Below the pieces are notes generated by a model, which was not told where the DNA came from, did no database searches, and saw only the letters and a list, made by a program, of their open reading frames with translations. Both the position numbers and the translations under genes were made by a program. Shown here piece by piece: positions 41,198-42,924 of a stretch of DNA of 64,000 nucleotides. Numbering within the stretch: position 1 is the stretch's first letter; each line of letters opens with the position of its first letter. Source of the DNA: Deferribacter desulfuricans SSM1 (GTDB taxonomy: Bacteria; Chrysiogenota; Deferribacteres; Deferribacterales; Deferribacteraceae); assembly GCF_000010985.1 (NCBI RefSeq), contig NC_013939.1:310001-374000 (forward strand), read 5' to 3'.

Positions 41198-41363
41198 GGT
41201 GAAGGATGAGTAAAGGGTGGAATGGTTTAATAGTTTGGCAGAAGAGCCATTCTATTGTTTTGGAAATTTACAAATTGATAAAAAGTTTTCCAAAAACTGA
41301 AACTTATTCTTTAGTGGATCAAATCAAAAGAGCAGCCTATTCAATACCTACTAATATTGTTTG

Positions 41364-41659
41364 CCCTGTGGAATAAGATGTTTTATTATGTATATGTATT
41401 ACAAAGTGAGAAAGATAAAAAGTTTTATGTTGGATATACATCTAACTTAAAAGAAAGAATTAAAAAATATAATGCTGGTGGTGTGAAATCAACGCAAAAT
41501 AGAAGACCATTAAAATTGATCTATTTTGAAGGATGTTTAAACATAGATGATGCTTTGAGAAGAGAAAAGTATTTGAAAACTACTTATGGTAAGAGATATA
41601 TAAAGAAAAGATTAAAAAATTATTTAATTGATATTTTTTAGTATTTTTATTCCACAGGG
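41364..41659 (+). mobile_element. 296-bp element: GIY-YIG nuclease between 13-bp terminal inverted repeats
   Basis: CCCTGTGGAATAA at 41364-41376 is exactly repeated in inverted form (TTATTCCACAGGG) at 41647-41659. The only content is a GIY-YIG gene whose ATG starts 1 base after the left repeat and whose stop ends 5 bases before the right repeat. The element sits within the conserved NIV-EGKG stretch of the four-helix-bundle gene. No target duplication is obvious. There is no transposase or space for a catalytic intron. Confidence 0.7.
41378..41641 (+). CDS. GIY-YIG nuclease-domain protein
   Basis: The 87-residue protein is a single GIY-YIG domain: YYVYVLQSEKDKKFYVGYTS (with YVYV and YVGY as the two strands), then LKERIKKYNAGGVKSTQNRRP with the catalytic Arg, and LIYFEG with the catalytic Glu further on. 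It belongs to the small stand-alone group once labelled UvrC-like or YhbQ-like. ATG 41378 is chosen over a TTG 21 bases upstream that lies in the disrupted host gene. It is probably the cutting enzyme that moves the element. Confidence 0.85.
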   Translation: MFYYVYVLQSEKDKKFYVGYTSNLKERIKKYNAGGVKSTQNRRPLKLIYFEGCLNIDDALRREKYLKTTYGKRYIKKRLKNYLIDIF

Positions 41660-41870
41660 TAAAGGACATTCAAAAAATACAAAAAAAGAATTTTTAAGAT
41701 ACCTTTATATAGCTCGTGGTTCTTTGGAAGAGCTAAGATACTTCCTTTTACTTTCAAGAGATTTAGGTTTTATAACTGATGTAAATTATGTATATTTTGA
41801 AGATAAGTTGACTGAGATAAGCTACCTTCTCAATAAACTTATCAAATCCTTATCTTCTAAAAACCATTAG

Positions 41871-42789: not shown

Positions 42790-42924
42790 ATGAGTAGAAA
42801 TTGGAATGAGCTGGTTGCTTGGCAAGAGAGCCATAATTTTATTTTAGATATTTATAAATTAACATCAAAACTTCCTAAAGAAGAAGTTTATGGATAGGTT
42901 TCCCGAATACGCAGAGCTGCAAAC
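42790..42924 (+). pseudogene. Decayed four-helix-bundle protein gene (5' part)
   Basis: ATG 42790 begins MSRNWNELVAWQESHNFILD, then IYKLTSKLPKEEVYG, a close relative of the gene at 41206. A TAG stop follows, then VSRIRRAAN, which is the next conserved block, and a second stop. The rest is not recognisable. It is a second, degenerated copy of the family. Confidence 0.72.

Follow-up and report, generated by a model that had tools for sequence, protein, structure and literature searches.

How a nuclease gene held between two short inverted repeats came to interrupt a protein-coding gene is the question raised by one small segment of the window, by which is meant the whole 64,000-nucleotide stretch of Deferribacter desulfuricans DNA that was analysed. 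The reading favoured here, at a probability of roughly two in three, is that the segment is an intron-less, target-specific element of the homing type whose arms are cis signals common to non-autonomous copies, homing-type spread being the likeliest route of its dissemination. The window element belongs to a broad family that has several targets and includes ORF-less relatives. Made up of one gene of ~260 bases and a pair of short arms, it would rank among the smallest autonomous mobile elements, and would be a case of a nuclease gene that spreads through protein genes without a splicing device to conceal it.

The layout of the element is given in Table 1. From arm to arm it measures 296 bp, and an exact 13-bp inverted repeat arose by chance in 1 of 2000 trials of flank shuffling. 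The preliminary description had exact repeats bracketing a single nuclease gene, with the ATG 1 base past the left arm and the stop 5 bases short of the right arm, and its coordinates and spacings are confirmed. Its assignment of the product to the GIY-YIG nucleases also holds (PF01541, E 1.3e-17): the best-matching solved structures are UPF0213 proteins (1zg2, E 2e-7), R27, E51, R62 and E63 are among the residues kept in at least 93% of 70 homologues, and the domain, with its conserved catalytic residues, belongs to the UPF0213-like GIY-YIG proteins. The flanks, taken earlier for one four-helix-bundle gene, both match the Pfam profile PF05635 (23S_rRNA_IVP, hereafter IVP) and are the two halves of a gene split by the element. 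Likewise upheld is the idea of a minimal mobile element in which the nuclease is the sole gene, since the element holds no transposase of the DDE, HUH, tyrosine or serine type and no intron RNA was matched in Rfam for the two loci scanned (L001 and L010). A classical insertion sequence is rejected on the lack of such a transposase and of a target-site duplication, and a group I or II intron or an intein on the empty Rfam scan and the host-frame stop in the left arm.

Table 1. Features of the interrupted IVP gene and its insert, in window coordinates.
Feature	Position	Strand	Basis or remark
IVP gene, N-terminal part (...SIPTNIV)	41206..41361	+	PF05635 profile 3-46; genome match 351206-351361
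TG, insert bases outside the 13-bp left arm	41362..41363	+	comparison with empty orthologues L124-L126 and with L091/L096
Left terminal arm, CCCTGTGGAATAA	41364..41376	+	contains the in-frame TAA ending the N-terminal IVP frame
GIY-YIG nuclease ORF, 87 aa, UPF0213-like, intact	41378..41641	+	PF01541
Right terminal arm, exact inverse of the left	41647..41659	-	inverted-repeat match
TA, right junction	41660..41661	+	T belongs to the insert; A replaces G of the empty-allele GAR
IVP gene, C-terminal part (KGHSKNTKKEF...)	41661..41870	+	PF05635 profile 49-106
Second IVP fragment, degraded, with internal TAG, ~1 kb downstream of the element	42790..42924		

The limits of the insert can be read from uninterrupted IVP orthologues of the same order as the window (L124-L126, ~60% amino acid identity). 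With slashes marking the junctions, these empty orthologues read ...AAT ATA GTT/GAG GGG CAT where the window reads ...AAT ATT GTT/TG CCCTGT...ACAGGG T/AAA GGA CAT, so that beyond the arms the insert takes in 2 bases at its left end and 1-2 at its right, and one target G has been lost or altered. Because these outer bases are absent from the empty orthologues, the insert is slightly longer than 296 bp; the left arm reaches TTGCCC... if the last host T is counted. The earlier proposal that uninterrupted relatives would rejoin therefore stands to within a few bases, but not at the exact arm edges, where rejoining the window flanks yields one surplus codon; the arms as exact insertion boundary must be given up in favour of a true junction lying a few bases outside them. 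The element invades a conserved IVP codon (between N-I-A/V and E-G), and in two relatives of the same order, L091 and L096, an element with near-identical arms occupies that same codon. The IVP frame runs into the left arm as GTT TGC CCT GTG GAA TAA, and because it stops one base before the nuclease ATG, translation of the nuclease is probably coupled to that of the interrupted gene; the C-terminal IVP frame is open backwards through the right arm (IPQGK). Same-ended copies, a search for which had been suggested, are present in other genomes, and no second copy occurs in the D. desulfuricans genome itself (2,542,933 bases in two contigs).

A genome scan returned 117 encoded relatives, of which 80 were kept, and with further searches 111 nuclease loci were examined. 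Arms of the form TTYACCCYGTknAATAA...TTATTnmACRGGGTRAA flank the nuclease at 70 loci from many phyla. Of 85 close homologues, 52 score 11 or more for an inverted repeat, compared with 6 for the reversed control and 0 for the shuffled one. That there is a mobile family of these nucleases with conserved ends is very likely, and the family is apparently undescribed so far, no report of GIY-YIG genes joined to such arms having been found in the literature searched. The interrupted genes, assigned to classes by eye from translated flanks (the IVP class alone being Pfam-tested, in the window), encode IVP, XerD-like and other integrases, NAD-epimerases, IS91 transposase, RHS, YhcG-like and GxxExxY proteins. 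Insertion falls at TGGAGF in NAD-epimerases and at RYTH/KVAISN in the IS91 transposase, and several inserts are placed exactly between codons of conserved motifs; a single fixed frame-join at 3 outer bases misfit some loci because junctions shift by a few bases from locus to locus. Nuclease lineages track the target gene, with 19 label changes against 37.7 after shuffling on a tree built from few alignment columns. Sister nucleases have dN/dS values of 0.03-0.33, and judged by these ratios the nuclease is under selection. Plasmid and phage records gave weak GIY-YIG matches only, and the IMG/VR protein scan gave one genuine element, L010; a further 12 IMG/VR loci picked up with the two-arm pattern were discarded as chance matches, a recognisable GIY-YIG ORF being present in 0 of the 12.

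Mobility of the element is well supported by comparison of alleles. The elements of L010 and of L050 (Chryseobacterium) are 99.7% identical within IS91 flanks that are ~82% identical, the shift being abrupt at the element ends. An empty IS91 allele of L050 is provided by L275, whose flanks are 94.3% and 98.3% identical to it and which reads GATACACGCA/C/AAAGTGG where the filled allele reads GATACACGCA/TTCACCCC...GGGGT/AAAGTGG. For the Salegentibacter IVP gene, the empty GC/GG/AAGG corresponds to GC/TTGCCC...GGGTTA/AAGG in the filled L044. In these filled and empty pairs 1-3 target bases are usually replaced, no target-site duplication was seen, and a specific conserved site occurs in both empty and filled form, as is required of a homing gene. 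In Galbibacter two different epimerase genes each contain a copy, the pair being 95.8% identical, and these epimerase-type elements (L058:1434-1860 and L061:1434-1860) supply a replacement 5' gene end, such that a full-length frame follows the element.

Under the homing-type reading, the nuclease would be the mover of the element and would cut the empty allele at its conserved site, after which repair would copy the element in with a very short tract, swapping the few target bases and leaving no duplication, as at the junctions observed. The arms would probably serve as cis signals recognised by the nuclease at the DNA level, perhaps in the form of a single-stranded hairpin. Common ends, the IVP codon shared with L091 and L096, filled and empty pairs, the two Galbibacter copies, target specialisation, selection on the nuclease and the recurrence of the arms as a unit in ORF-less copies all support this reading. 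Homing often leaves an extended co-conversion tract, and none was seen at the junctions. It also counts against homing that the D. desulfuricans genome has a single copy, and that a nuclease reading the arms should attack its own copy too, which classical homing avoids. Part of the pattern could stem from vertical inheritance combined with infrequent transfer, because elements of the same class are mostly found in diverged hosts.

The same ends are also found without an ORF, in mini-elements of a ~30-60 bp class and a ~80-105 bp class. The short pattern gave 88 matches in 64 genomes against 1 match for the reversed control, and the longer class 28 in 43 genomes against 2. Where the inner part measures 20 bases or more, 40 of 47 fold with exactly two inner hairpins in the outer stem, which amounts to a three-way junction, and the inner folds have a mean z of -3.8; most of the short mini-elements thus form perfect three-way junctions. 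The inner hairpins are often closed by three-base loops, for example GAA or AAA, of the type typical of stable DNA mini-hairpins. In most autonomous elements and mini-elements one end carries TTTA and the opposite end TTCA (Fisher p 4e-4 and 2e-3, respectively); the arms thus behave as a unit, present with the same asymmetry in the mini-elements. This TTTACCC/TTCACCC asymmetry does not depend on the orientation of the ORF. Terminal inverted repeats are therefore common to nuclease elements and ORF-less derivatives, as in transposons, and nested and tandem copies occur.

Several mini-elements lie within conserved protein genes, including polA, dnaE, priA, atpG, rsmI and PEPCK, where they read [HY]PVK...FNRV or TPLN...LTGF; host genes were named from translations, with atpG, dnaE and rsmI also compared with solved structures. 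In 13 of 45 sampled mini-elements a frame is open over a long stretch through the element, and 12 of these 13 are 1 mod 3 in length. The RsmI homologue 5hw4 is continuous at the position of two mini-elements, and E. coli-type DnaE is ~19 residues shorter across the stretch concerned. In-frame mini-elements L255-L265, from genomes G183, G190, G180 and G003, add ~17-20 residues each. The mini-elements are in these respects in-frame palindromes in unrelated conserved genes, as are Rickettsia palindromic elements (RPEs), and their sharing of ends with nuclease elements offers a testable answer to the question of how palindromes enter protein genes.

Evidence that one nuclease serves both kinds of element is divided. 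In G190 the autonomous element L322 has uncommon arms, CCCCGTCAAAT...ATTTGACTGGG, that are identical to those of the local mini-elements, and in G180, G165, G182, G174 and G017 the arm core agrees between nuclease and mini-elements. The arm variants of the two are mostly mismatched in G177, G183, G192 and G193, and no close nuclease was found in G003 and G005 although mini-elements are present there. For the association of mini-elements with the nuclease, the counts are 14 among 53 genomes reached via element loci and 8 among 147 background genomes, part of the background cases being chance-like. Mini-elements are probably moved through the same end signals; that the nuclease mobilises them is plausible, at a little short of an even chance. 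Also somewhat less likely than not is the proposal of a new class of mobile DNA, in which armed GIY-YIG elements would also drive three-way-junction mini-elements, in frame, into essential genes. If true, it would provide a mover for protein-coding palindromes and would account for the intron-less GIY-YIG inserts seen in CPR bacteria.

An alternative is a genuine transposable element whose GIY-YIG protein acts on both arms by excision or copy-out and moves autonomous and mini-elements alike in the manner of IS200/605 or RAYT systems. Such an element would account for arms conserved across targets, for the enrichment of ORF-less same-ended copies over the control, for nested and tandem copies and for the arms that L322 shares with the G190 mini-elements. 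It is nonetheless unlikely, given the absent target-site duplication, the strong clustering of target class on the nuclease tree and the differing arm variants in four genomes; moreover, GIY-YIG enzymes act by hydrolysis and are not known to carry out strand transfer. REP/RAYT and MITE systems, which are moved by a Y1/HUH or DDE transposase, similarly combine an autonomous gene copy with ORF-less hairpin copies that have shared ends, but the family described here has a GIY-YIG nuclease as its only gene.

Far less probable is an RNA-level intervening element, whose arms would pair in the transcript and bring both junctions together, so that production of the host protein continues once the insert is removed or bypassed. 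Inserts lying exactly between codons of conserved motifs would suit such an element; the lack of any intron-family match in Rfam for the two loci scanned, the left-arm stop that ends the host frame and the replacement gene start carried instead by the epimerase group would not. Between the arms there are, in addition, 8 C.A mismatches against 3 tolerable U.G pairs, and because the former outnumber the latter the arms look, on these small numbers, like signals in DNA and not like stems in RNA. That a chance insertion or domesticated nuclease merely adjoins a bidirectional terminator, as the single copy in D. desulfuricans and the ability of a stem beside an ORF to work as a terminator might suggest, is scarcely credible when the arms stand at the insertion boundary in many host genes, are common to several phyla and are accompanied by filled and empty allele pairs.

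Several known systems resemble the present family in part. Ssn proteins are reportedly site-specific single-strand GIY-YIG nucleases, described in Neisseria transformation; they too are small GIY-YIG nucleases tied to a repeated target sequence, and work on them may cover part of the present family. The sections drawn on here of a report on free-standing or mORF homing endonucleases in fungal mitochondria (Allomyces atp6, Glomus atp6/atp9) describe endonuclease ORFs without an intron in coding genes, some of which supply a substitute gene end, much as the epimerase group does at the 5' end; mORFs differ in having duplicated C-terminal gene ends, and those sections mention neither conserved short inverted arms nor same-ended ORF-less relatives (PMC3630166). 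GIY-YIG inserts unlike either intron group are held in CPR rRNA genes, with many ORF-less inserts alongside, and were judged to lie outside a homing context (PMC11270868). Compared by description, they resemble the present elements in their GIY-YIG ORFs without intron similarity and differ in their rRNA gene location, and the terms 'inverted repeat' and 'palindrom' are absent from that text; the family offers a testable answer to the nature of these inserts (PMC11270868). RPEs, according to the parts of a review used here, are in-frame palindromes in unrelated protein genes of Rickettsia for which no mover is named; by description they are ~150 bp long and are discussed there without reference to GIY-YIG, whereas the mini-elements are shorter and have nuclease-element ends (PMC10969869).

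Further inverted repeats accompany related genes. Distant GIY-YIG clades (L332, L335, L341, L344, L346, L119 and L100) have the repeats ACCCCCACACC, ACCCAGCACTAA, TCCGCCCAAC and CCCCGCACC, and a CPR subgroup (L067, L075, L085, L086 and L090) has long arms of another kind, CCCAGTAATACAACTTCCAG...CTGGAAGTTGATATACTGGG. The genomes G180, G183, G190, G192 and G193, of ~1 Mb each, hold 5 to 12 GIY-YIG genes of the family type per genome, and at L026:1996-2301 a second armed stretch of 306 bp, CCCTGTGTAAT...ATTACACGGGG, adjoins the first element.
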